DNA of 43,694 bases from Pseudomonadota bacterium (lineage in GTDB: Bacteria; Desulfobacterota; JAPLJL01). Of this stretch, positions 3,172 to 34,261 are shown one piece after another. Every line of letters starts with the position of its first letter. Position 1 is the first letter of the stretch. The position numbers and the translations under genes are program-made. Under the pieces are notes generated by a model, which was given only the letters and a program-made list of their open reading frames with translations, was not told the DNA's origin and made no database searches. The stretch lies in the NCBI GenBank assembly GCA_026388655.1, contig JAPLJI010000155.1, positions 1-43,694 on the forward strand, read 5' to 3'.

Positions 3172-3910
3172 GGGAATTATTGCCGGGAAGCTTTTCCAGC
3201 AGGGACCGGGCCGCGGCCTGTTCCGCCGCCCGCTTGGTCTTTCCGGTCCCGGTCGCGGAAAGAGAGGAATCCGGGAGATTCACCTCGGCTTGGAAAACCT
3301 TGGCGTGGTCGGGTCCGGTCTCGGAAACGATCCAGTAAACCGGCAGCTTTTTGAAGCGTTCCTGGGTGATTTCCTGGAGGTCGCTCTTGAAATCCCGACT
3401 GATCCGGCCCCGGGCCAGATCGGAGAAAAACGGATTCAGGATCCGCCCGATCGCTTCCCGGGCCGCGTTGATCCCCCCGTCCAGGTAAATGGCGCCGAAA
3501 ACTGCCTCCAGCGCCGCAGCGATGATCGAATCCTTCTCCCGACCCCCGGTTAGTGTTTCCCCCTGGCTCAGGTTGAGAAAATTCCCCAGGTCCATCCCGC
3601 GGGAAATTTCCGCCAGCCTTTCCCGGGAAACCAGGGTGGAACGCATCTGGGAGAGCTCGCCCTCGTCGACAAGCGGAAAGAGCCGGTAAAGCTCGTCGCT
3701 GGCCACGAGCTCCAGGACCGCGTCGCCTAGAAATTCGAGTCTTTCGTTCCGGGGGATATTCGGCCCGCGGGTTTCGAAGGCGAAGGAATCATGGGTCAGG
3801 GCGGTTTCCAGAAGTTCGAGATGGGCAAACTGGTAGGCCAGTTTCTCTTCCAGGTTTTGCAAGGCCGTTTTCCGCTCCGGCGATATTTTCAGTTCTTCGT
3901 CGGGAAACAT
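3164..3910 (-). CDS. rnc: Ribonuclease III
   Basis: RNase III cleaves double-stranded RNA during rRNA and mRNA processing. The 248-residue protein has the signature NERLEFLGDAVLEL, followed by DEGELSQMRSTLVSRE and the second acidic site EAVFGAIYLDGG, which together supply the metal-binding acids. A C-terminal double-stranded-RNA-binding domain starts near DFKSDLQEITQ and ends with GKTKRAAEQAAARSLLEKL. Length and domain order are typical. It is the first gene of a run continuing into the HprK-like gene (8-base overlap) and der. Confidence 0.97.
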   Translation of the reverse strand: MFPDEELKISPERKTALQNLEEKLAYQFAHLELLETALTHDSFAFETRGPNIPRNERLEFLGDAVLELVASDELYRLFPLVDEGELSQMRSTLVSRERLAEISRGMDLGNFLNLSQGETLTGGREKDSIIAAALEAVFGAIYLDGGINAAREAIGRILNPFFSDLARGRISRDFKSDLQEITQERFKKLPVYWIVSETGPDHAKVFQAEVNLPDSSLSATGTGKTKRAAEQAAARSLLEKLPGNNSHA

Positions 3911-7355: not shown

Positions 7356-8267
7356 ATGAAAAAATGGGGAATTATTCTGGCAGTCCTGGTTTTGACCGCG
7401 TCGGGATGCACCGGGATTATGCGGAGTGGAATGGGCGCGGCCACGCCGATCTTTGACTCGGCGATGGAAGCGGCCATGCGCGGCAAAGATCCCATGATCC
7501 TGGGGGAAGGAGTCCCGGGCCTGGCTCTTCTCCTGGACGGGTTGAGCAACTTCGCCCCCAAGAACCGGGCCTTTATTACCTTCGGGGCCCAGCTTTATAC
7601 CGCGTATGCCCTGGGTTTCGTCGAGGATACAGACCCCGAGCGGGCCCGGGTTCTGTATGCGATCGGCCGGGACTATGGATTGAAAGCTTTAAAAATGAAC
7701 CGCGGGTTCAGAAAAGCCCTGGAAAAAGGGAAACCCTATTCCGAGGCGGCCAAGTCTCTGAAAAAGAAGGACATGGACGCCCTCTTCTGGACCGCTGCGG
7801 CCTGGGCAGCCTGGATGAACCTTTCCACCCGGGATACCGAGGCCCTCTTCGATATCCCCAATATCATGGCCCTTTTGACCCGGTCCCTGGATATCATGGC
7901 CCTTTTGACCCGGTCCCTGGAGCTGGACGATACCTTCTGGTACGGGGGGCCGCATATGTTCTATGCCGCCTACTACTCCCAGTTCCCGGCGATGATGGGC
8001 GGCGGACCGGAGAAAGCCCAGAAGGAGTTCGACAAGGTTAAGGAGATCGTTAAGAAAAAAGCCGGGGAAAAGGGCGAATGGCTGATCGCCGATTATTTCT
8101 ACGCTAAGTATTACGCCACCCTGATCAAGGACGAGGAGCTTTTCGACAAGACTATTCAGAAGATTCTGGACACGCCGAACGATTGCATTCCGGAGATGGC
8201 CGCCGTCAACGGGCTGGCCAAAATCAAGACCCGGCATCTTCTCGAGCAGAAGGACCGATATTTCTAA
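7356..8267 (+). CDS. TatT-like TRAP-associated lipoprotein (T component)
   Basis: The 303-residue protein begins with a lipoprotein signal (LVLTASGC, Cys at 18) and has helical, TPR-like content with the conserved stretches GVPGLALLLDGL and ALFWTAAAWAAWMNLS. This matches the TatT family, whose spirochaete member Tp0956 forms a periplasmic trimer with the substrate-binding TatP. Its place between dctM and dctP fits that role. The ATG follows a strong AAGGAGG site at 7342-7348. The segment around residues 169-188 contains a perfect 10-residue tandem duplication (IMALLTRSLD twice). Confidence 0.85.
   Translation: MKKWGIILAVLVLTASGCTGIMRSGMGAATPIFDSAMEAAMRGKDPMILGEGVPGLALLLDGLSNFAPKNRAFITFGAQLYTAYALGFVEDTDPERARVLYAIGRDYGLKALKMNRGFRKALEKGKPYSEAAKSLKKKDMDALFWTAAAWAAWMNLSTRDTEALFDIPNIMALLTRSLDIMALLTRSLELDDTFWYGGPHMFYAAYYSQFPAMMGGGPEKAQKEFDKVKEIVKKKAGEKGEWLIADYFYAKYYATLIKDEELFDKTIQKILDTPNDCIPEMAAVNGLAKIKTRHLLEQKDRYF
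7861..7920 (+). repeat. Perfect 2 x 30-bp tandem duplication inside tatT
   Basis: Bases 7861-7890 and 7891-7920 are identical. The unit begins ATATCATGGCCCTTTTGACC. Because 30 is divisible by three the frame is kept and ten residues are duplicated. Identity is complete at third codon positions, so the event is either very recent or an assembly artefact. Confidence 0.97.
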
Positions 8268-15483: not shown

Positions 15484-15589
15484 TTAATGAGTGGATAACA
15501 ATTTGCCATGAGCCAAAAAAATTCGTTTTTCTTTTAGCGGCCTTGCCCTTCTTGCCTATCATATGGCCGATTGATAATATATCGCACCG

Positions 15590-16630
15590 ATGGGATTGCT
15601 TCAATTCATCCTGATCTCTTACCTGGGGGTTTGCGGTTTCAGTTACGCCGATCTTTCCCGGGTTGAACCCCTGGCTCCGGTTATTATCACCACCGAAGAT
15701 CAGGCCCAGGTCTCCCTTTATCATTACCCGGGAAAGGATCCGCGGAAATCCCCGGTGGTTTTATTTCCAGAAATCGGCACCAACCGCTTGATTTTTAATC
15801 TTCCCTCCTCCGGCGGACTGGCCCCTTACCTGTCCCGAAAAGGGCGCGATGTCTGGGTGGTCGAATTCCGCGGGGCCGACGCAGTTCCCCGGGATTGGAG
15901 CCTGGACGAGCTTTTACGTTATGACCTCCCCCAGGCCCTAGCCCGGGTGGGAGCGGAAACCAAGCAGAAAAACCTTGACCTGGTAGGTTTGGGAATGGGC
16001 GGAACTATTCTGCTTGAGTATTTGTCTTCCAGACCCAATCCTGATCCCGGCATTGAAAAAATCATCTTGATAAATTCCCCCGGTTCAACGCAGGCCGTTA
16101 ATCAGGCAGTCAAGATCTGGGCGGAAAAAGCCCAAGGGCTGGGGGAAGGAGACAAAAGCGAGTTGATTGATCTCAAGAAGGCCTGCCAGACCCCCTGGCC
16201 GGCCGCCCCCGGTACGCTTTTCCATCTGCTTTTCTGGGGCCCGATTGCGGATGAAAAAACCGAAGCCGATGTCTGCCAGTCGGTTTTCGAACCCATCCCA
16301 CCCGGCCTGGCCAAACAGCTGGCCCGCTGGGTAGAAACCGGAATCTTAAGCTCCCGGGATGGCAAAAGAAATTTTTTAATTAATCTGAAGAATATCCGGA
16401 CCCCGGTTCTTTTTCTTTCCGGACAGCTCGACAATCTCGCCCCCCCCTGGCAGGCGGACTTCGCCTATCGGGCCATTTCCTCCGAGAAAAAGAAAATCCG
16501 CATCTTCGGGCGGGCCAACCGCTATCAGAAGGAATATGGCCACTTCGATCTTATCCTCGGGCCGGACGCTTTCCGCGAAGTCTATCCCTATCTTTTTAAC
16601 TGGTTAAAAAACCCTAAGAATTCAAATTGA
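15590..16630 (+). CDS. Exported alpha/beta hydrolase-fold protein lacking the nucleophile
   Basis: The 346 residues begin with a signal-like segment ending in FSYA-D (about residue 20), followed by an alpha/beta hydrolase fold resembling lipase or PHA-synthase-type hydrolases. The nucleophile elbow reads GLGMG (133-137), so glycine 135 sits where serine or cysteine is expected. The presumed acid D281 (SGQLDNLAPP) and histidine H318 (EYGHFD) are kept. It may be a non-catalytic binding protein or use different chemistry. The codon is GGA, not one base from a common serine codon other than AGA-type paths. It converges on the HisC-like genes. A diverged fragment of the same gene family lies at 21077-21191. 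Confidence 0.82.
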   Translation: MGLLQFILISYLGVCGFSYADLSRVEPLAPVIITTEDQAQVSLYHYPGKDPRKSPVVLFPEIGTNRLIFNLPSSGGLAPYLSRKGRDVWVVEFRGADAVPRDWSLDELLRYDLPQALARVGAETKQKNLDLVGLGMGGTILLEYLSSRPNPDPGIEKIILINSPGSTQAVNQAVKIWAEKAQGLGEGDKSELIDLKKACQTPWPAAPGTLFHLLFWGPIADEKTEADVCQSVFEPIPPGLAKQLARWVETGILSSRDGKRNFLINLKNIRTPVLFLSGQLDNLAPPWQADFAYRAISSEKKKIRIFGRANRYQKEYGHFDLILGPDAFREVYPYLFNWLKNPKNSN

Positions 16631-16648
16631 TTGGGCCTTTTGTGGACT

Positions 16649-16686
16649 GCCTCAGCTTGCTGAGGCAACGCAATAGCTAGCTATTG
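16649..16686. repeat. Two adjacent perfect palindromes
   Basis: GCCTCAGCTTGCTGAGGC (16649-16666) and CAATAGCTAGCTATTG (16671-16686) are both perfect hairpins. They follow the hydrolase stop but have no T-run, so terminator function is uncertain. They sit in a 259-base gap that otherwise holds REP-like repeats and no gene. Confidence 0.7.
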
Positions 16687-16775
16687 AACTCCAAAAAAAG
16701 CAACCGATTGAAAAACACCGATCTCGCCAGCAACGGGATAAGTAACCTGACAAGTTTCAAAATTCTTGATTCCAA

Positions 16776-16889
16776 TGTAGTTGCCCAATTTATTGGGCTC
16801 CTCAAATCCTAATTCAAATTATTTATTTATCCCGGCAACCAGAGGAACACTTGGCAGGGATAAGTACGCCGATAAATCGGCAAACTACG
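16776..16889. repeat. REP-like element pair with GTAG feet
   Basis: TGTAGTTGCCCAATTTATTG (from 16776) forms a hairpin with GGGC just after it. CGCCGATAAATCGGCAAAC (from 16868) leads into CTACG on the other side and is the reverse complement of a similar GTAGTTTGCCGATTTATCGG unit. The two define a 114-base segment with inverted ends. The same unit recurs at 20460. The GTAG foot is the hallmark of REP sequences served by RAYT proteins. Confidence 0.65.
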
Positions 16890-18266
16890 TTATTTAAAGA
16901 ATCTGCGGGGATAGGGATTAATCCCGAAACTTATAGCCACCCGGGCCGCCTTTCTCCCTTCGACTGTATCCAGATAATTTTCCGAGGACGCGGCGGGCGA
17001 GCCCAGCAAGTCTTCCAGAACCCGGATAAAATGCTCGTTTTCCTCCGGGAGACCCGGGCAGATCCGGAGCCAGTTGGTCATCTCCCATTCCTCCCCGGGG
17101 CGGAGCACGATTTTTTTGGTCAGGAGCTGGGTGAAAAACGTGACCCCGTCCCGCTGAACGTCGAAGATAACGTAACTTCCCTGGGAGCGGTGATAGGCCA
17201 GCCCCAGCCGGTCGAACTCCCCGTAGAGATATTCCCGGCCGTCCCGGTTATTTTCATAACTGCGCCGGGTTTGTGCTTTCGCGTCATCCAGGCTGGCCAG
17301 GGCGGCGGCCAGACCGGCCTGGCTGATGCCGGCGAAAATGGCCCGGGGGGAGATTTTTTTGGCCAGCTCGAGCGGGGCGATGGAATATCCGACCCGGAGC
17401 CCGGTCAGGGCGAAGGTGTGGGAGAAGGTTTGAACCTGCACCAGGTTTTGACCCTTTTCCACGTAATCAAGAAACCGGGGATAACTGCTTTTTTCGTTCG
17501 CGTCCATGAATTCGGGATCCGAATCATCAGCCACGATCACCGCCTGGGGATGGTGGGCAAAAACATATTGGGCGAATCCGTCAAACTCCGACCGGGTCAG
17601 GAAGCTGCCAATCGGGTTGTTAATATTGTTGAAATGAATAAGACGGATATGGGGATTATCCTCCAGGGCCTGCTTCATCGCCGGAAGATCCGGCTTGTGG
17701 GGATTTTCGGTGTGGGGAACCTTGATGATCTCGGCCCCGACCACCCGGGCCCGATCAATAATGACATGATAAGTCGGCCACTCGGTGAGAAAGGCTGACC
17801 CGGGGGTGAGAAAAGTATCGCAAAGCTGGTTCAGGGATTCCCAGGAACCGCATCCCAGGTTGATATTGTCCAACCCCAGGCCGGGGCCGGCGCGGTTATA
17901 TTTCAGGATCCCGGTCGTTAAATCCTCGTAAGAAAAATCCGGGTAGCGATTGATGTTTCCCGTTTCCGAAATTACCTCCCGCACCGCTTCCAAGGCCGAG
18001 GCGGACGGACCGACGGGATTTTCGTGATAACACATTCTCTGGTAGCCCTCGAAATAAAAGGAGTCGTTGGTGATCGCCCGGGCCTCCCGGAGAGGGATAA
18101 TCCGGGAACCCAGGGCGGAGACGGCTAGGGTTCCGCCGGCGGCCAGACCCAGCCTTTTTAAAAAGGACCGGCGGGAAAACTCCGCCCGCGCCTCCCCTTC
18201 CCGGCGGTGAAGCTGGTTTTGAAAAAGATCCCAGGGATTATATTTTTCAACCATTGGATAATTCAC
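16890..18266 (-). CDS. Tat-exported HisC-like PLP-fold protein with His in place of the PLP lysine (copy A)
   Basis: The 458-residue protein has a twin-arginine signal SRRSFLK (31-37) with a hydrophobic stretch after it, then a fold-type I aminotransferase domain most like histidinol-phosphate aminotransferase. Recognisable landmarks are ENPVGPS, GCGSWESLN, NNINNPIG (N217), ADDSDPEF and TFSHTFALTGLRVGY. In the last motif family members have TxSKxxxLAGLR with the Schiff-base lysine; here it is H283. The phosphate-binding R291 and a C-terminal substrate Arg (LRICPGL) remain. ATG codons at 18266 and 18254 are both possible; the former overlaps the RAYT gene by 20 bases. Function is unknown. Normal transamination is unlikely without the lysine. 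Confidence 0.85.
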   Translation of the reverse strand: MNYPMVEKYNPWDLFQNQLHRREGEARAEFSRRSFLKRLGLAAGGTLAVSALGSRIIPLREARAITNDSFYFEGYQRMCYHENPVGPSASALEAVREVISETGNINRYPDFSYEDLTTGILKYNRAGPGLGLDNINLGCGSWESLNQLCDTFLTPGSAFLTEWPTYHVIIDRARVVGAEIIKVPHTENPHKPDLPAMKQALEDNPHIRLIHFNNINNPIGSFLTRSEFDGFAQYVFAHHPQAVIVADDSDPEFMDANEKSSYPRFLDYVEKGQNLVQVQTFSHTFALTGLRVGYSIAPLELAKKISPRAIFAGISQAGLAAALASLDDAKAQTRRSYENNRDGREYLYGEFDRLGLAYHRSQGSYVIFDVQRDGVTFFTQLLTKKIVLRPGEEWEMTNWLRICPGLPEENEHFIRVLEDLLGSPAASSENYLDTVEGRKAARVAISFGINPYPRRFFK

Positions 18267-18894
18267 TCATTGCTTTTTGTTTCGTGCTGCCATAAATCAA
18301 ATTTTCGATTGTAGGGGCGACGCATGCGTCGCCTTTATTGTTAGGATTTTCCCTGTCGAACTGCCATTTTAAGGGATTTTTAATGATATATTCTCTCACC
18401 TGGTTTAATTCATCCTCATCCCTAATGATGTGTTCGTAATAATTTCTCTGCCAAATAGAAAACCTATTCCCCGGACCAATTCCATTGGCGCATCTGGTCG
18501 TCGCAGACTTGAAAGATCCAACAATGGAACCAATCGTTCTAGGTCCAGGATCACGGGGATTGCTGTTTGAATGATGTTTCTGTAGGGGCGACGCATGCGT
18601 CGCCCCTACATTAATAATTTGGATAATTCCATGAACATGATTTGGCATAATAACGAATTCATCCAATCCAATATTAGGAAAATGCTTGGGGATTTCCTCC
18701 CAACAATATTTTGCAATTCCTCCAATGGTTGTCGGTACTATTTTCTTATCGATTACTTCCCCAAAAATACATTTTTTTCTATTGGTGCACACCGTAACAA
18801 AATAAGCACCTGTTCCTGAATAATCATAATTTTTCAATCGAACTGAGCGTCGGCGTAGCTCTTCTAATTTACCGGCGCCAATCTTGATCTCCAT
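18247..18894 (-). CDS. REP-associated tyrosine transposase (RAYT, Y1/HUH family)
   Basis: RAYTs are single-copy relatives of IS200/IS605 transposases that cut REP hairpins. The 215-residue protein has the N-terminal RAYT-type start (RRRSVRLKNYDYSGTGAYFV), the HUH motif in MPNHVHG (83-89) and a catalytic tyrosine candidate at Y152/Y153 (QRNYYEHIIRDE). Two segments of the protein, about 95-105 (VGATHASPL) and 188-195 (GDACVAPT), are encoded by REP palindromes lying inside the gene. It begins immediately after the stop of HisC-like copy B, overlaps the start of copy A, and shares their direction. Confidence 0.9.
   Translation of the reverse strand: MEIKIGAGKLEELRRRSVRLKNYDYSGTGAYFVTVCTNRKKCIFGEVIDKKIVPTTIGGIAKYCWEEIPKHFPNIGLDEFVIMPNHVHGIIQIINVGATHASPLQKHHSNSNPRDPGPRTIGSIVGSFKSATTRCANGIGPGNRFSIWQRNYYEHIIRDEDELNQVREYIIKNPLKWQFDRENPNNKGDACVAPTIENLIYGSTKQKAMSELSNG
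18310..18333. repeat. Partial REP palindrome inside the RAYT gene
   Basis: Positions 18310-18333 match the left 24 bases of the complete REP at 18581, starting TGTAGGGGCGACGCATGCGT. The right arm decays (GCCTTTATTG instead of the GCCCCTACA arm). In the RAYT frame it encodes GDACVAPT near the C-terminus. Confidence 0.85.
18581..18610. repeat. Perfect 30-bp REP palindrome inside the RAYT gene
   Basis: All 30 bases form one perfect palindrome with arms beginning TGTAGGGGCGACGCA. It has the GTAG foot on both strands. It lies in frame in the RAYT gene and encodes VGATHASPL between the HUH motif and the tyrosine. There is no T-run, and the position within a coding frame argues against a terminator. 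Confidence 0.92.
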
Positions 18895-20136
18895 TCAATA
18901 CCCCCACCAGTAAAGCCTCGGGACGTTATCCGCGACCGGGGAATCGGCGCTGTATTTTCCCAGCGCCTCCGCAAATATCCGCCCTTCCTCCTCCGTCCCG
19001 GTGGAAGCCCTGATCCAGTTGGCATAGCGAGAATGAAAAGCGTTCCCGGATTGCACCTGAATGCCGTTTTTATAGAGGTAAGCCTGAATCCGATCTCCGG
19101 GGATCCCCGTATTGGCCAGGATAAAATTGGTTTCGGAAGGGATATATTCCCAACCCATTTCGGAAAATGCCTGGTAATAAACAGTTTTGATCTTCTGATT
19201 TAATTCCCGGGTTCGATTTAAATGCTCCCCGCCCTCTTTCAGGCTGGCGATCGCCGCCGCCCAGGCGATCCGGTTGTAGTTGGCCCCCAGCTTCCAGTGG
19301 AAACCCATCTCCGAGAGCGAGGGGGTGCGCAGGCCTCCCATCAGGTCGGCCAATTCCAGGGGCGCCAGGGCGTATCCCGCCCGGGCCCCGGCCAGGCCGT
19401 AGGCGTGCGAAAAGGTGCGGACCACGACCAGCGGCCCCTCCCCGAGGTAATCCCGGCCGGAGACGAAATCCGGGTCCTCAACGTAATGGCCATAGGCCTC
19501 GTCGATGACGATGATCGTTTCCGGGTTTTTCTGCCAGGCCGAGGCCAGAAAATTTTCCAGATCATTCTTTTTAATCACCAGGCCGGTGGGATTATTGGGG
19601 TTGCAGAGGAAAATAACCCGGGTGGCTTGATTTACCTCGGAAGCCAGCGCATCCAAGTCAATGCCGTGATCGTTCCTGTTTTCGACCTCCTTGATTTCCG
19701 CCCCCCAGAGGCCGGCGTATTCCGAAGGAAGCCGGAAAGTCGGGACCGCGGTCAGGAAAACGTCCCCGGCGGTCAGGAAGCAGGAAGCGATGATGTTGAA
19801 AATCTCGCTCGACCCGCAGCCGGGCACCACGTTTTCCGGCGCCAGGTTATGAAACTCGGCGATGGCTTTGAAAAGATCCCCCTGGAGAAAATCCGGGTAG
19901 CGGTTCAGGCCGGTCAGGGTTCGGGGTTTATTCCGCTCCGCCTCCATGGCTTCCCGCGCCTTCGGACAGGGACCGAGCGGGTTTTCGTTGAAGGCCAGGC
20001 GGATAAATTCCTCACCTTTTTTATTTCCTCCCCCGCAGGAAGAAAGGCTTCCCGCCAGCACCAGCCCCCCGGCCAGGACCAGCCCTTCCCGGATCAATTC
20101 CCGCCGGGACAAATTTTCAGATTTGTTATCGATCAT
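18895..20136 (-). CDS. Tat lipoprotein, HisC-like PLP-fold protein with His in place of the PLP lysine (copy B)
   Basis: From the ATG at 20136 the protein has 413 residues. It starts with a twin-arginine motif SRRELIR (10-16), a hydrophobic run, and a lipobox SLSSC (Cys34), so it should be a Tat-exported lipoprotein. A longer open frame reaches 20259 but runs through repeat sequence, so it is rejected. The HisC-like domain keeps FNENPLGP, PGCGSSEI, CNPNNPTG (N182), VIDEAY (D212) and the C-terminal Arg in WIRASTGT. In TFSHAYGLAGARAGY the Schiff-base lysine is replaced by H244. It is closer to standard HisC than copy A. The RAYT gene and copy A follow downstream in the same direction. Confidence 0.87.
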   Translation of the reverse strand: MIDNKSENLSRRELIREGLVLAGGLVLAGSLSSCGGGNKKGEEFIRLAFNENPLGPCPKAREAMEAERNKPRTLTGLNRYPDFLQGDLFKAIAEFHNLAPENVVPGCGSSEIFNIIASCFLTAGDVFLTAVPTFRLPSEYAGLWGAEIKEVENRNDHGIDLDALASEVNQATRVIFLCNPNNPTGLVIKKNDLENFLASAWQKNPETIIVIDEAYGHYVEDPDFVSGRDYLGEGPLVVVRTFSHAYGLAGARAGYALAPLELADLMGGLRTPSLSEMGFHWKLGANYNRIAWAAAIASLKEGGEHLNRTRELNQKIKTVYYQAFSEMGWEYIPSETNFILANTGIPGDRIQAYLYKNGIQVQSGNAFHSRYANWIRASTGTEEEGRIFAEALGKYSADSPVADNVPRLYWWGY

Positions 20137-20142
20137 AATATC

Positions 20143-20193
20143 GTCATTCCTGTCCCGCATCAGAGTGCGGGATAAACTCCAGCAGGAATCCAG
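20143..20193. repeat. dRS3-like dispersed palindrome upstream of HisC-like copy B
   Basis: GTCATTCCTGTCCCGCATCA (from 20143) and the downstream CAGCAGGAATCCAG form the typical GTCATTCC...GGAATCC pair, with an inner hairpin around CCCGCATCAGAGTGCGGG. It sits 7 bases upstream of the copy B start, where the promoter and ribosome site would be. Confidence 0.7.
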
Positions 20194-20218
20194 TTTAATC
20201 CAATAATATTTCATGTTT

Positions 20219-20330
20219 CGTAGGGGCGGATTTCTATAGCCGCCCGGGAAGGGAGCCAACCCCTCGATTTCACTCGGGATAAATGGAATGGTTTATCCTG
20301 AAGGGACTCATCCTGAAGGGCTCCCCTACT
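20219..20330. repeat. MITE-like element with GTAGGGG ends
   Basis: GTAGGGG at 20220-20226 is matched by CCCCTAC at 20323-20329. Just inside the left end is the hairpin GGGCGGATTTCTATAGCCGCCC. TATCCTGAAGGG-type phrases repeat inside (ATCCTGAAGGGACTCATCCT). No gene is present. Confidence 0.6.
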
Positions 20331-20349
20331 TTTCATCAATCTCAACGCC

Positions 20350-20422
20350 GTCATTCCCGCCCTTCGACGAAGTTTACACTGAGCGGAGCGAATGTGCTCA
20401 GGATAAACTCCAGCGGGAATCC
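20350..20422. repeat. dRS3-like dispersed palindrome
   Basis: GTCATTCCCGCCCTTCGACG at the left and CTCCAGCGGGAATCC at the right form the outer hairpin. The inner part (CACTGAGCGGAGCGAATGTG) is another common dispersed phrase. With neighbours it fills the 426-base gene-free stretch 20137-20562, in which no gene was seen. Confidence 0.7.
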
Positions 20423-20459
20423 ATCGTCATTTAGAATCAGATTTCAAACGAATATTTTA

Positions 20460-20529
20460 TGTAGTTGCCCGATTTATCGGGCTAAGAGATTATTCCCCCC
20501 AAAATAGCCTCATGAAGGAGGCAACTACA
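20460..20529. repeat. 70-bp MITE-like element with 10-bp inverted ends and GTAG foot
   Basis: TGTAGTTGCC (20460-20469) and GGCAACTACA (20520-20529) are perfect terminal inverted repeats. The left end also folds as GCCCGATTTATCGGGC. It is the same family as the segment at 16776-16889. Confidence 0.75.
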
Positions 20530-20562
20530 AAACAACCAACAAAAAGGATTGTTGGACATCTT

Positions 20563-21102
20563 TCAATTTGTAATCCCCTTACCTCTCAGAGTTTTAATGG
20601 ATTCGCTTATCACCCTGCCCTGCTCTTCAATTATATTCAGAAGCTCTTCAGGCGTGCGGGTGTCTTCCTCGTCCCCAATCGAACTTTCCAGAAAAACCGG
20701 TTCCTCGCTAAATATTTGGTCAATAGGAATATCGGCTCTTTCATCTGCCGGGGCCGAGCCCAGGGTATCTTCCTCGTCCCCGATCGGGCTTTCCAGGGAA
20801 ACCGTTTCCCGGTTCAGTTTGAGAATCTCCGCCACCCGGTCATCCGGCATCCCCAGGCGTTCCCCGATCTCCTTCAGGGAGGGATCGCGGCCAAGCTCGC
20901 GGGAAAGCAACTCTACGGCGCGGTTAAATTTAATCAAAGTGTCGCCCATGTGCACCGGGACCCGGACGGTCCGGGACTTGTCGGCGATGGCCCGGATAAT
21001 GGACTGCCGGATCCACCAGGTGGCGTAAGTGGAAAATTTGAACCCCCGGCGGAAATCGTATTTCTCCACCGCCCGCATCAGGCCCAGGTCTCTTTTTATC
21101 AT
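20563..21102 (-). pseudogene. Truncated sigma-70 fragment fused at a recombination junction
   Basis: The 179-residue open frame is about 90% identical by eye to the RpoD of this window from region 2.3 ([20 protein letters not shown]) through region 3 and the 3.2 finger ([14 protein letters not shown]). It then contains a second finger-like copy ([12 protein letters not shown]) and ends without region 4. The first residues MIKRDL come from the adjacent hydrolase fragment. So the apparent ATG was created by the fusion and has no ribosome binding site. It lacks regions 1.2, 2.1 and 4 and cannot be a normal sigma factor. Most likely it is a decaying fragment; a small expressed sigma-like protein is a less likely alternative. 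Confidence 0.85.
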
Positions 21103-21191
21103 TACACGGGAAAGGATCCGCGGAAACCCCCGGTGGTTTTATTTCCAGAAATCGGCACCAACCACCTGATTTTTGACCTCCCCTCCTCCGG
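21077..21191 (+). pseudogene. Fragment of the alpha/beta hydrolase gene
   Basis: This segment aligns base for base, with scattered differences, to 15699-15813 inside the hydrolase gene; for example TGGTTTTATTTCCAGAAATC occurs in both. It encodes [20 protein letters not shown]. The left edge begins at ATCAGGCCCAGGT, a 13-base sequence also present in rpoD. The right edge ends at CCCTCCTCCGG. Confidence 0.9.
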
Positions 21192-21194
21192 ATC

Positions 21195-21428
21195 GGCGAG
21201 CGGAGAGGCTTGGAAAAGTACCGGGATCAAAACATCGAGATCTTCAACCGCCTGGGGGTAAAAACTATCATCACCTCCTGGGCCGGGTGCACCAGCACTT
21301 TCAGGGAAGAATACGCCGGCAAACTCAACTGCGAGGTCCGGCACGCGATTGAATATTTTGATCGCCTCATCTCCCAGGGGAAAATCCGGCCAAAAAATCG
21401 ATTGACAGGGTTTCAAAAAGTGGATTAG
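21195..21428 (+). pseudogene. Fragment of a CCG-domain Fe-S (HdrB/GlpC-like) protein
   Basis: The frame encodes EIFNRLGVKTIITSWAGC followed by STFREEYAGKLNCEVRHAIE and YFDRLISQGKIRP. This is the C-terminal part of a CCG (cysteine-rich) domain as in heterodisulfide-reductase-like and glycolate/lactate oxidase subunits, where the motif is TSCxGC. The first cysteine of that CxxC is tryptophan here (TGG). No start, no N-terminal domain and no first CCG motif are present. It is the third fragment of the mosaic and its last codons overlap the promoter of the next gene. Confidence 0.7.
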
Positions 21429-21431
21429 TAT
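21402..21431 (+). promoter_or_regulatory. Sigma-70 promoter for the lipoprotein gene
   Basis: TTGACA (21402-21407), an 18-base spacer and TAGTAT (21426-21431) form a good vegetative promoter. The start codon lies about 155 bases downstream, leaving a long leader. The leader contains a half REP (GCCCCTACAATC at 21559-21570). Confidence 0.6.
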
Positions 21432-21586
21432 AAAAAAGCTTAACCTGATGAAGTCGACAGGCCTTTTTAAAAAATAAGTTTGTGCAAAAGACTCTTTCCT
21501 CGGGATTTGAGATTCTGGAACGCTGGGACACTAAGAAGCTATACGCTAGGCAGAGTTTGCCCCTACAATCGGTAAAGAGGACGAAG

Positions 21587-23335
21587 ATGAAAAGAGAAAG
21601 AATAAGAGCGGTAGGCCTTTTCGTAGCCACAGCCCTGGCAATTCTTCCTCTCTCCTCCTGTGGAGACGATGGCAATAACCAAAGCATAACCAAGAAATGT
21701 CAAATTGCTATTAACACCAATAATTATTCAAAAGTTCTTGATGATTGTCCCTGCGGTGAGATCACCTCTGAGCAAAAACTTGTCATCGGGATTAAATGCT
21801 TACAGGAAAACGATTGGTATAAGGCAGAAACTTATTTTTACGCGATTGGACCAGAAGCAGCCGAATATGGCTCTGCTCAGTACGGGATTATGCTGGCTGA
21901 GCTGCAAAATATCATCGGTGAGATAAACCTATACATTCCAATGTTAACTGACTTTCTTGGAATCACGTCCTACCAGCCCCAACAAGAGATGAATCCCTTG
22001 AACGTGCTCGACACAATACTCCAGCCATTTATTGATAGGTTGGAAACCATAAAAGCCAAGAGCATAGATTGCCTCAAGAATAATTGGTCAATTGAGATAG
22101 AAAGATTTCCCTTGATTCTTGGGGAAGAAGGAACGGGATTTTTCTTCCAGATCCTTCTCAACGGAAAGGCGGGCAAATTTCCAGCCCGGAGCTTAGGGCT
22201 CATGTCTGATTCGGTAATATTAATGCTAAAATATCTGCGAGCCCACGAATTATCTCTCAATGTCGATTTATTAATGAATCATCTTAATGATCTCTTATCG
22301 CTTCTGAAGGGATTCAAGGGGGCAGATCTTCTCGGGACGGTCAGAGGATTTGGATGGTTTTTTGAGGAAAATCCCAATTTTCTGACGAAAAGCTCTCGCT
22401 GGGATTCATACACGACGGAGGTAATGACCAAATCTTTGGATTTGATCCGCAGTTTCGGAAATATTAGCGGTGACCTTTCTGAGACCGCAGCCGCAAGCGC
22501 CGCTGGTTGCGCAGATGTATTTTGTTTAATTGATAAAGATGGAAATGGAAAAATCAGTAACGGTGACCTTTTGCGGACAAATGGATCCTTACACCTAACT
22601 GCGATTGGGGCCTCGGTCGACCTGGATTTTACCAACGAGATGATTGTTACTTTTACGGGGATGATTGTAAATATCTTGGTTAATTCGCTTGGTTCTTTGG
22701 AAGAGATGACGGGTGGTGATATCAGTCAACTGTTAAACATTCAACTCCAGAGCCTTAACCCGATGCTTGAAAACCTTGGGCTTCAGCCCCTTCCCAATGT
22801 CCTCCAGATATCTGTTGTCCAGATTATTGGTTTGCCGGTGGGAGCATTTTTTGATTACTACTGTGAGGATGCCAACCATAACCCCATCTCCTGTGATACC
22901 GGGGGGGCCAAGCCGGTATTTCCCTATGAGGTTGAGTTAAGAGATATTCCGGCCCAGTGTAAAACCTACCAAATATGCGGTGATCCGCCTTATCCAAGCT
23001 ATTATAAGCAGGGAGATAGCCCCCACTTTGTCGGAACAAAATTTGAAATTCCGGCAGATTCCGTTTCTCCCCTACTCAGTCCTTCCTTAATTCCTACGGA
23101 TATTCTAATCTATTTTGCCCTGAGAGATCCGACCTTGAATGGCGCCCTCATGGTTAACTTGGGAAATCTTCCGGTTGCCTGCTCCCCGGAAGAGGATGAA
23201 TGGGTATTGGCAGACAATTATGCATTAAACAAGATTTCGAACTGTCTTGTTACTGATTATCTCCCTTGGGTCCAGGCAGGACTGTTTCCATTAATGGTGA
23301 ATTGGATACTGGATTTGGTTGGTTCCTTTTTGTGA
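21587..23335 (+). CDS. Large uncharacterised lipoprotein with one EF-hand-like loop
   Basis: Starting at the ATG at 21587, preceded by AAAGAGGACGAAG, the protein has 582 residues. It opens with a lipoprotein signal (VGLFVATALAILPLSSC, Cys about residue 25). A longer frame from a GTG at 21482 is less likely because the lipoprotein signal would be internal. A calcium-binding EF-hand-type loop DKDGNGKISNGD occurs near the middle. Several CxxC-spaced cysteines occur near the C-terminus (YYCEDANHNPISCD, QCKTYQICGD). Codon use is visibly more A/T-rich than in flanking genes, which suggests transfer. I do not recognise the family and assign no function. Confidence 0.8.
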   Translation: MKRERIRAVGLFVATALAILPLSSCGDDGNNQSITKKCQIAINTNNYSKVLDDCPCGEITSEQKLVIGIKCLQENDWYKAETYFYAIGPEAAEYGSAQYGIMLAELQNIIGEINLYIPMLTDFLGITSYQPQQEMNPLNVLDTILQPFIDRLETIKAKSIDCLKNNWSIEIERFPLILGEEGTGFFFQILLNGKAGKFPARSLGLMSDSVILMLKYLRAHELSLNVDLLMNHLNDLLSLLKGFKGADLLGTVRGFGWFFEENPNFLTKSSRWDSYTTEVMTKSLDLIRSFGNISGDLSETAAASAAGCADVFCLIDKDGNGKISNGDLLRTNGSLHLTAIGASVDLDFTNEMIVTFTGMIVNILVNSLGSLEEMTGGDISQLLNIQLQSLNPMLENLGLQPLPNVLQISVVQIIGLPVGAFFDYYCEDANHNPISCDTGGAKPVFPYEVELRDIPAQCKTYQICGDPPYPSYYKQGDSPHFVGTKFEIPADSVSPLLSPSLIPTDILIYFALRDPTLNGALMVNLGNLPVACSPEEDEWVLADNYALNKISNCLVTDYLPWVQAGLFPLMVNWILDLVGSFL

Positions 23336-23344
23336 GCTACGAAA

Positions 23345-23715
23345 CTAGAGGAAAGCATTCCCTTTTAACCGGTCTTTATCCTCGTCTTCCTTATCCCCTT
23401 TGAAGTATATTTCTATCAGGTCGATTTTATTCTCACGCTCAAAATAGGTATAGATCACTCTGAGGCGAGAGTGCCCTCCGGTACCCTTCAAATAAGTGCA
23501 AGAAAACCTTCTGGCTTTATAAATTTTAGGATATTCAATTGATAATCCAGGTATTTGGCAAATATCTATTGGCTCTTTTTTTAATTCATGGAAATGTTTT
23601 AAGGATGCATTAATAAATCTTATTAAATCTCCTTCGAGACTTTTATATTTCCGGCTTAGTTTTTTCAGGTCTTTTTCAAATTCCGGAAGACGATAGACTT
23701 TTTAAAAATTACCAT
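23345..23715 (-). pseudogene. RelE/ParE-superfamily toxin gene with a broken start
   Basis: The minus strand encodes 118 residues from KVYRLPEFEKDLKKLSRKYK to the stop at 23345-23347, including KARRFSCTYLKG and HSRLRVIYTYFERENKIDLI. This is the pattern of RelE/ParE-like ribonuclease/gyrase toxins. The frame is preceded directly by TAA. An ATG at 23715 reads MVIFKK and would join the toxin frame if the five-base A run at 23703-23699 had one more base. So the gene carries a one-base homopolymer frameshift, or the assembly does. No antitoxin gene is adjacent; upstream lies only the rpoD terminator. It converges on the lipoprotein gene. Confidence 0.72.
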
Positions 23716-23720
23716 CAAAA

Positions 23721-23749
23721 AAGGCCCCGGATTTTAATTCCGGGGCCTT
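23721..23749 (-). terminator. Intrinsic terminator of rpoD
   Basis: AAGGCCCCGG (23721-23730) pairs perfectly with CCGGGGCCTT (23740-23749) around a 9-base loop. On the minus strand it is followed by a run of six T. It lies 26 bases after the rpoD stop. Confidence 0.93.
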
Positions 23750-23775
23750 AAAAACATCCGAGATAAAGATAAAGT

Positions 23776-25269
23776 TTAATTGCGGCTGAGTTCTTTCTCG
23801 TAACCGAAGAATTCCTTCAGGGTGTCCCCCTTGCCCGATTCCTTCAGCTTCTTCAGGGCCCGGGCCTCGATCTGGCGGATGCGCTCGCGGGTGATGTTGA
23901 AGACCTTGCCGATTTCCTCGAGGGTGTACTCGTTGTTCTCCTCGATGCCGAACCGCATCCGCAAAATCTTCTCCTCCCGGGGAGAGAGGGTGGAAAGCGC
24001 CTCGCGGGTGCGGTCGGAAAGGTTCATTTTCGCGGCCAGGTCAATGGGGGCCTCGGTTCGCTCGTCGGCCAGGACCGAGCCCAGGGTGTCTTCCTCGTCC
24101 CCGATCGGGCTTTCCAGGGAAACCGGCTCCCGGTTCAGCTTGAGAATCTCAGCCACCCGGTCGTCCGGCATCTGCAGGCGTTCCCCGATCTCCTTCAGGG
24201 TGGGATCGCGCCCGAGCTCGCGGGAAAGCTCCGCGGTGGCGCGGTTGAAATGCAAAAGGGTGTCGCCCATATGCACGGGGACCCGGATGGTCCGGGATTT
24301 GTCGGCGATGGCCCGGATAATGGACTGCCGGATCCACCAGGTGGCGTAAGTGGAAAATTTGAACCCCCGGCGGAAATCGTATTTCTCCACCGCCCGCATC
24401 AGGCCCAGGTTTCCTTCCTGGATCAAATCCAGGAAGGAAAGCCCCCGGTTCAGGTAACGCTTGGCGATGCTCACGACCAGGCGGAGATTCCCCTGAATGA
24501 ACTTGTGCCGGGCTTCCTGGATTTCCCCCAGGGGTTTCTCCAGGATGAAAAGCAGTCTCTCCCGATCCCGGTTCTTCACCTCGATGTCCACGGGGAAGAT
24601 CTCGTCCGGAACCAGGCGGACCGATTGCGGGCAATCCTGCAAGGCACCGGAAAACTTGAAGATAAATCCCTCGATAAATTCGCCGCGGAGCGGCAGATTC
24701 TGCAGATGGATTTTTATTTTTTCCCGGTTCTCGGTCATCTTGGTTTTAATCCGCTTCTTGCCGATGGCGGTGTAGTTGTTCTTTCTTAGATTGTTCTCCA
24801 CCGTCCGGTATTCTCCCTCCAGCTTGTCGATCTGCCGCAGGATCGCGAGGACTTTTTTAGCCTTGTCCGTCCGGTAAGTAGGTTTCTCAATGAGGGGATC
24901 GGTCGGGGTTATATTGAAAGCCATTTCCAGCTCCGAATCCCGTTTTAAAATTTCCCGAAGGGAATAAATGAAGGCATCCGTTTTGAACAGGAACTCGATC
25001 AGCTTGTTCCGGGCGTCCTCGATTTTCCGGCCCAGCTCCACCTCCTCCTGGCTGGAAAGGAGTTCATAATCCCCCATGTCCCGGAAGTACTGCTGGGAAT
25101 AGTCAATCTCAATTTCTTCCTTACGGTAAGTGGGGATCTGGACCAGATCCTCGGGAAGATCCTGGGGCTCCTCCGCCAGAGGTTCTTCCAGGACGGGCAA
25201 ACCCACGCTGCTTTCGAGTTCCAGCTCGGGGCTTTTCTGTATCTCGGTTTTTTTCTTTGTTTTTTTCAT
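23776..25269 (-). CDS. rpoD: Primary sigma factor RpoD
   Basis: The 497-residue protein has region 1.2 (YFRDMGDYELLSSQEEVELG), a moderate non-conserved region, region 2 (RLVVSIAKRYLNRGLSFLDL, then [19 protein letters not shown]), region 3 with the finger [13 protein letters not shown], and region 4 (STLSPREEKILRMRFGI; EEIGKVFNITRERIRQIEAR). These are the full marks of a housekeeping sigma-70. The N-terminal region 1.1 is reduced to a charged stretch. It has its own terminator at 23721-23749. A partial diverged copy of its middle lies at 20563-21102. Confidence 0.97.
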   Translation of the reverse strand: MKKTKKKTEIQKSPELELESSVGLPVLEEPLAEEPQDLPEDLVQIPTYRKEEIEIDYSQQYFRDMGDYELLSSQEEVELGRKIEDARNKLIEFLFKTDAFIYSLREILKRDSELEMAFNITPTDPLIEKPTYRTDKAKKVLAILRQIDKLEGEYRTVENNLRKNNYTAIGKKRIKTKMTENREKIKIHLQNLPLRGEFIEGFIFKFSGALQDCPQSVRLVPDEIFPVDIEVKNRDRERLLFILEKPLGEIQEARHKFIQGNLRLVVSIAKRYLNRGLSFLDLIQEGNLGLMRAVEKYDFRRGFKFSTYATWWIRQSIIRAIADKSRTIRVPVHMGDTLLHFNRATAELSRELGRDPTLKEIGERLQMPDDRVAEILKLNREPVSLESPIGDEEDTLGSVLADERTEAPIDLAAKMNLSDRTREALSTLSPREEKILRMRFGIEENNEYTLEEIGKVFNITRERIRQIEARALKKLKESGKGDTLKEFFGYEKELSRN

Positions 25270-33303: not shown

Positions 33304-34261
33304 TCATCGATATACTTCCAGATTAAACCATGGGGGTCTGGTGTCCAGGAGCGTGATTTCATCCGGAAGCTCGATTATTGCCCGGCGGCGATATTTTCCT
33401 GGCGACAGGCCGGAACCCTCAAGGTAAACCTTGATCTCTTCCGGTTTAAGCTCGGAAAGAATCAGTTCCGGCCCCAGGACGAAAAGATCGATCCCCGCCG
33501 GACAGTTCCGGCCCCAGGACGAAAAGATCGATCCCCGCCGGACGGATCTGGTATTTGGCCTGAAGAAGTCCAACCACCTTGATCGGAACCGCCTTAAACC
33601 AGCGCTTGTCCAGGGTCTTCACGATCTCCACCTGGACTTCAACTTTTTTCGGTTCCGCCCTGGTAATATGAATCCCTCCGATCACCAGGGGCACCACCAC
33701 CCGGAAGGGCTCGTTCCGGTCCTTTAAAGACACCGGCTCGGTTTCCACGGAATCAATCCGGTTCAGTTCCTGGGCCGCGCCGGTTAGGCCCACCCGCGCG
33801 GGGGAAACGTTGATCTGGGAGATCTTATACCCCCGGGCGCAATCACCCTCGGTCTTGGTCCGGACCAATAATTCCCTGGTAACCACGGGGGAAAACTCAA
33901 AACTAACCTCGGACGGGTTAATCCGGCTCACCCGGAGCCCGCGGGAGAGAACTATCTGCTCGGGAAAAATATGATAGGAAGAGCGGCCCGCCTTCGCCGC
34001 CGAAAGGTCGAGGGAAAGGTTGACCCGGGTCGGGTCCAGGCTCGAAAGGAAGGTCCGGGGTCCCTGCACCCGGACCTCCAGGTGGGTAGCCGGGTTATTT
34101 ACGATTACCAGCGATTCCGGGAGATTTTCAAACCGTACCGGCACTTCCAGCCCGATCTCGGACGATCTCCGCCCGATCACGAAAAACCAGAGGAAGACAG
34201 CCAGTAATAGCGAAATGATTTTGAGAGAAAGTTTGCCGAGAAGCTTTTGCTTGAAGGCCAA
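33304..34261 (-). pseudogene. YbbR/CdaR-like protein, frameshifted by a 40-bp duplication
   Basis: The gene encodes an N-terminal membrane helix (LSLKIISLLLAVFLWFFVIG) and YbbR repeats (LEVPVRFENLPESLVIV; VRVQGPRTFLSSLDPTRV). At 33463-33542 a 40-base unit is present twice in tandem, shifting the frame. The upstream part ends early (GPELSGGDRSF...) and the remaining 3' part continues in another frame (GPELILSELKPEEIKVYLEG to the stop at 33304). Removing one copy restores a single 305-residue frame. YbbR proteins often accompany the diadenylate cyclase CdaA; none is adjacent here. Confidence 0.88.
33463..33542. repeat. Perfect 2 x 40-bp tandem duplication inside the YbbR-like gene
   Basis: Bases 33463-33502 and 33503-33542 are identical, starting CAGTTCCGGCCCCAGGACGA. 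Forty is not divisible by three, so it breaks the frame. Perfect identity means recent origin, reversible slippage or an assembly artefact. Confidence 0.97.

Follow-up and report, generated by a model that had tools for sequence, protein, structure and literature searches.

Organization of the locus

The DNA analysed, called the window below, is a stretch of 43,694 nucleotides and constitutes one contig (C164) of a draft genome of 3.56 Mb in 194 contigs. Its positions 1-141 repeat exactly the right end of another contig of this draft, C17, and the two contigs are probably neighbours. A patchwork of gene fragments was found to be flanked by two minus-strand genes, an aminotransferase gene (18895-20259) on the left and an intact rpoD gene (23776-25269) on the right. 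Read from left to right, the order is a REP-like repeat, a stretch without relatives, a 47-nt rpoD fragment, a long rpoD fragment, a hydrolase fragment, a CCG-domain fragment and an ORF of 617 amino acids. The relevant features are as follows:

15590..16630, plus strand: intact alpha/beta hydrolase gene (Pfam Abhydrolase_1, E 2.4e-10), parent of the hydrolase fragment, which matches its positions 15699-15813, and left arm of the proposed duplication
16890..20259, minus strand: Y1_Tnp (RAYT-like) ORF flanked by two ORFs of the aminotransferase family, assigned by Pfam
20460..20530: REP-like inverted repeat, TGTAGTTGCC...GGCAACTACA; 10 further places in the genome were found to have a similar copy
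20563..20657: stretch to the left of the rpoD fragments, inside the 179-aa ORF
20563..21102, minus strand: 179-aa open frame across the joint, with its start codon in hydrolase-derived DNA and its body from the rpoD fragment
20658..20704, minus strand: additional 47-nt rpoD fragment, corresponding to 24084-24130 (87%)
20732..21089, minus strand: long rpoD fragment (end of sigma region 2 and region 3), corresponding to 24053-24410 (89.9%), with weaker similarity from 20718
20978..21089, minus strand: 112-nt tract of the rpoD fragment, identical to the intact rpoD and reaching the joint
21077..21089: 13-bp shared sequence ATCAGGCCCAGGT at the joint
21077..21191, plus strand: hydrolase fragment, corresponding to 15699-15813 (92%)
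about 21185..21425, plus strand: fragment of a CCG-domain Fe-S protein gene
21482..23335, plus strand: 617-aa ORF with no Pfam match, sitting where the duplicated intervening block would be expected
23776..25269, minus strand: intact rpoD (Pfam sigma-70 regions 1.2, 2, 3 and 4), parent of the rpoD fragment and right arm of the proposed duplication

The original prediction, made from the sequence and its reading frames, described three fragments lying edge to edge, from a sigma factor gene, a hydrolase gene and a CCG-domain gene. Alignment to rpoD, the hydrolase gene and CCG relatives gave the same coordinates and identities for all three; the count was too low, however, as the 47-nt rpoD fragment at 20658-20704 had been overlooked. 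For the stretch to its left (20563-20657) no relative was found at E ≤1 in the three genomes of the genus, with one partial exception, a match to a sigma gene of sister genome G002 (E 0.74) that extends about 8 residues in from the adjoining 47-nt fragment. Several distant paralogues of the 617-aa ORF (24-36% amino-acid identity) are spread over all three genomes of the genus. Translated by eye, 23348-23701 had suggested a RelE-like protein; this reading was discarded, since no Pfam match was obtained at E 0.01.

Parental genes of the fragments

The long rpoD fragment was aligned with 24053-24410 of the window's own rpoD and showed 36 differences in 358 nt and no indels. Its identity was 89.9% to the own rpoD; for the rpoD genes of the sister genomes, the values were 88.8% (G001) and 88.5% (G002). 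Contig C19 of this genome carries a second rpoD-like sigma gene, which was rejected as the source, as it is only 71% similar and the residues of the fragment follow the window's own rpoD. The rpoD of a sister species was also rejected as a donor: the fragment is about equidistant from the three rpoD genes, and at five sites its joint-proximal tract agrees with the own rpoD and not with the sisters. The hydrolase fragment (21077-21191) matched the local gene at 15699-15813 with 92% identity, 9 differences and no indels, vs 82-83% for the hydrolase genes of the sister genomes.

For the CCG fragment no close donor was found, with 48-52% amino-acid identity for the best matches, whether in this genome or in the two relatives; the order-level donor search covered these three genus genomes. 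Eight CCG-like matches were present elsewhere in this genome, none of them above 52%, and the best-matching ORF among them (contig C120) encodes a CCG plus 4Fe-4S protein. The fragment reads SWAGC where most of the matching relatives have a cysteine at the position of the tryptophan, before xGC, so one cysteine has been lost. In G002 (contig C41, L042), two CCG-domain regions, 3327-3513 and 7678-7864, lie 4,351 bp apart and score equally against the fragment; they possibly represent a duplication in that genome.

The 13-bp joint and the arrangement in sister genomes

The rpoD and hydrolase fragments overlap in exactly 13 bases (21077-21089). The joint had been placed at a short sequence common to local genes, and this was correct: ATCAGGCCCAGGT is present in both parents, at 24398-24410 in rpoD and at 15699-15711 in the hydrolase gene. 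It is the sole 13-mer that the intact hydrolase gene and rpoD have in common on the same strand. When codon-shuffled versions of the two genes were compared, any shared 13-mer appeared in 91 of 2000 trials. Each of the two local fragments lies on the strand of its parent. Read from left to right, the joint leads from position 24410, within rpoD as the right-hand parent, to position 15699, within the hydrolase gene as the left-hand one. The intact parents flank it, with the hydrolase gene (15590-16630) to its left and rpoD (23776-25269) to its right. The parental strand, the right-to-left order of the parents and the place between them together make up the layout of a tandem-duplication novel joint. 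The general claim of recombination at a microhomology can thus be kept as regards the short shared sequence, and is narrowed by strand, order and place to one specific event. By chance, the right strand and order would be met in an estimated 1/4 or so of random joints of two local fragments.

In G001, the hydrolase gene, the aminotransferase genes and rpoD form a single contiguous segment (L036 4292-9456), with 5,165 bp between the corresponding points. Positions 16897-20109 of the window align without interruption to L036 5410-8623, and where the window has 20110-23773 there are about 197 bp in G001. In G002 (L037), the hydrolase gene adjoins rpoD; the aminotransferase/Y1_Tnp block that lies between the parents in the window and in G001 is missing from that position. 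Both relatives show the unduplicated ancestral arrangement. Only 1 of the 3 genomes searched for the class, the window's own, carries the joint, which was found neither in G001 (L036) nor in G002 (L037), both having single copies. The searches at the level of genus, family, order and class all covered the same three genomes, and the lineage is isolated in that sense among the genomes searched. Among viral contigs the joint was found in none. The 179-aa protein was also compared with genome contigs, where it matched the sister rpoD genes and distant sigma factors; no mosaic-like entry was seen in the table rows of the best 80 of 231 matches, which were read as rows and not locus by locus.

A second copy of the intervening block was looked for to the right of the joint, and no convincing trace of 15500-20560 was found in 21192-23775 (best E 0.77). 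The joint is therefore the one witness to the duplication, and a duplication of the present day is not claimed. Loss of the second block copy is to be expected if the duplication is a fossil.

Decay of the fragments and the identical tract

The 25 changes found in the rpoD fragment alone were distributed over codon positions 1, 2 and 3 as 9/6/10, whereas those unique to the intact rpoD fell as 1/0/7. Given this lack of codon-position bias, the fragment looks like a pseudogene, without visible coding constraint.

The fragments do differ from the local genes, as originally noted, but the substitutions described as scattered are not evenly spread. All 36 differences from the own rpoD were located within 20736-20977, whereas the 112 nt adjoining the joint (20978-21089) had none. 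A difference-free run of this length was not reached in 200,000 random placements. The fragment-only changes likewise numbered 25 in the 246 distal nucleotides vs 0 in the 112 proximal ones (Fisher p 7e-5). The own and sister rpoD genes differ at five sites inside 20978-21089, so the tract is not merely invariant. This pattern suggests gene conversion from the intact rpoD or a second crossover. In the crossover version, a later exchange between an older rpoD fragment and a younger duplication joint would explain the tract.

The relative ages of the fragments were assessed from the distribution of changes. For rpoD, the four sequences split into the own gene and the fragment on one side and G001 and G002 on the other, a split that places no root and, taken alone, does not show the rpoD duplication to be younger than the separation of the species. 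The distal part of the rpoD fragment had about equal sides, with 8 changes on the own side vs 6 common to the sisters and 3 in G002 alone; as judged from these counts, it may be as old as the species split. The hydrolase fragment had 4 changes on the own side vs 16 on the sister side (binomial p 0.012), which favours an origin after the split. The 4 changes confined to the hydrolase fragment in 115 nt also differed from the 25 in 246 nt of the distal rpoD fragment (Fisher p 0.036).

Survey of partial gene copies and repeat elements

The locus had also been proposed to be an active gene-shuffling site. Within 27 stretches that add up to 316,543 bases with the window (about 9% of the genome), we looked for partial gene copies inside the same stretch; no second mosaic of local fragments was found in the other 26, so the proposal gains no support within that sample. 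In a masked survey, ORFs of at least 120 aa were masked, except for the window's fragment ORFs, and fragments carrying such ORFs would be missed there. It returned 35 rows, 18 of them within one stretch (15 in L159, 1 in L169 and 2 in the window). Comparisons of unmasked DNA cover this gap and gave 55 within-stretch pairs of at least 80 nt, of which 30 were not both in long ORFs and 25 were. The two fragment pairs of the window were counted in the latter group because of the long open frame that runs through the fragment. By reading, the remaining pairs were repeat elements outside long ORFs, the region of a long tandem-repeat gene (L159), within-gene repeats (including 1667/2198 of the window), adjacent genes with 60-63% identity, a 104-nt pair of an ORF edge with a multi-copy element, and one 141-nt contig-end repeat.

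As for the suggested position beside a RAYT/REP cluster, a Y1_Tnp (RAYT-like) ORF (18247-18894) and the REP-like element are indeed found within 3 kb, but neither is at a joint. The Y1_Tnp ORF lies in the block that aligns uninterrupted to G001 and so predates the mosaic.

Origin of the patchwork

We consider it somewhat more probable than not that the patchwork marks a decayed duplication seam: the hydrolase-rpoD segment would have been duplicated in tandem through the 13-bp microhomology, and the product later mostly deleted. The duplication is deduced from the joint. Illegitimate recombination at the 13 bp would, in the lineage of this species, have doubled head to tail the region bounded by a point within the hydrolase gene and one within rpoD (15699-24410). 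The product would contain a novel joint between the end of the rpoD part and the start of the hydrolase part, with both complete genes surviving outside. Deletions would then have removed most of the redundant copy, the right part being replaced by the CCG-gene remnant and the unrelated 617-aa gene. Pseudogene decay of the remnant would have followed, with gene conversion or a second crossover keeping some 112 nucleotides at the joint end of the rpoD fragment identical to the intact gene.

This sequence of events does not account equally well for everything at the locus. The apparent ages of the fragments are unequal (25/246 changes in the distal rpoD part, 4/115 in the hydrolase part and 0/112 in the proximal rpoD part), and the CCG fragment and the 47-nt fragment need further events beyond the duplication. 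Both points could be understood if short fragments of genes close by, and of a CCG gene since lost, had been copied serially into a gap during repair, by microhomology-mediated replication or break repair, with no tandem duplication on the kilobase scale. Four fragments lying side by side, one of them of only 47 nt, their unequal ages, the lack of any other remnant of a second copy and a third donor, CCG, that is not local all fit such template switching. However, several independent events would be required, and the strand and order of both local fragments, which are those of a duplication joint, would be left unexplained. We regard template switching as rather unlikely, though deserving of serious attention. 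An artefact of the draft assembly or a chimera of strains appears improbable. The draft is in 194 contigs, and the exact 112-nt repeat beside the joint could confuse short reads, but some contig ends overlap by exactly 141 nt (C17 with the window, and C7 with C21), which is indicative of de Bruijn assembly at k = 141. A de Bruijn assembler at this k should not join sequences on an overlap of 13 nt. Further, the fragments differ from the local genes by 36 and 9 substitutions, and the changes resemble neutral decay. These numbers of substitutions also bear out the original view that the locus is not a simple chimera of its present genes.

Finally, the 179-aa frame could be a new gene, expressed as a truncated sigma protein with only the end of region 2 and region 3 and interfering with transcription. 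The frame is open over 179 codons, has no indels in the 358 nt of rpoD similarity and matches Pfam sigma region 3 with E 2.1e-18. As a sigma-70 factor, though, it carries only profile positions 32-71 of region 2, the whole region 2 not being present, in addition to region 3. A weak match to region 4 (E 0.0061) did not reach the curated cut-off and fell on residues inside the region 3 match. The fragment-only changes have no excess at third positions (9/6/10), and 12 of the 29 codons differing from the own rpoD are nonsynonymous, vs 2 of 21 between the own and the G001 rpoD. The frame is also missing from both sister genomes. It is probably not a working gene, as judged from its pattern of substitutions and its distribution, and we see very little chance of the contrary. 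A slightly fainter prospect still is that repeated duplication, crossover and conversion beside rpoD are building a young chimeric gene from sigma and hydrolase DNA, the truncated sigma product of which could disturb transcription. Most likely, the locus is a real but ordinary genome scar, the result of a known kind of genome accident, with probable gene conversion after loss and decay.

Comparison with known systems

Joints of duplications at short homologies are known mostly from laboratory selections in which the duplication is still present. Bacterial tandem duplications of this type resemble the locus in having a novel joint on the same strand, leading from a downstream point to an upstream point through a short shared sequence. 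For E. coli, recombination between engineered microhomology borders is described with a sequenced join point, and recA is given there as not essential for it (PMC11111574). Duplications of this known type are fresh, selected and intact, while here a decayed joint is left, from which the duplication is deduced. A fossil joint with recognisable parents and an unduplicated sister would offer a modest example from nature of the way a duplication ends, through deletion, pseudogene decay and a conversion tract. No known picture is altered by this locus.

Remnants of genes in intergenic regions, or pseudogene fragments, are truncated copies that decay without codon-position bias, and truncation and unbiased decay are common to them and to this locus. 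Unlike ordinary remnants, the locus has three or four fragments, two of which can be traced to parents at distances of about 3 and 5 kb, and a clear microhomology joint. Gene conversion between paralogues leaves a tract identical to the intact gene within an otherwise diverged copy, and 20978-21089 shows such a tract. Unlike in typical conversion, the tract stops at the joint, where the homology ends, and its direction is deduced. RAYT/REP systems are represented within 3 kb by the Y1_Tnp ORF and the REP-like element, but not at the joints.

Elsewhere in the window, exact head-to-tail repeats of 30 nt and 40 nt are present at 7861-7920 and 33463-33542, respectively, each with two copies that are 100% identical. 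They are possibly recent short duplications or effects of the assembly.
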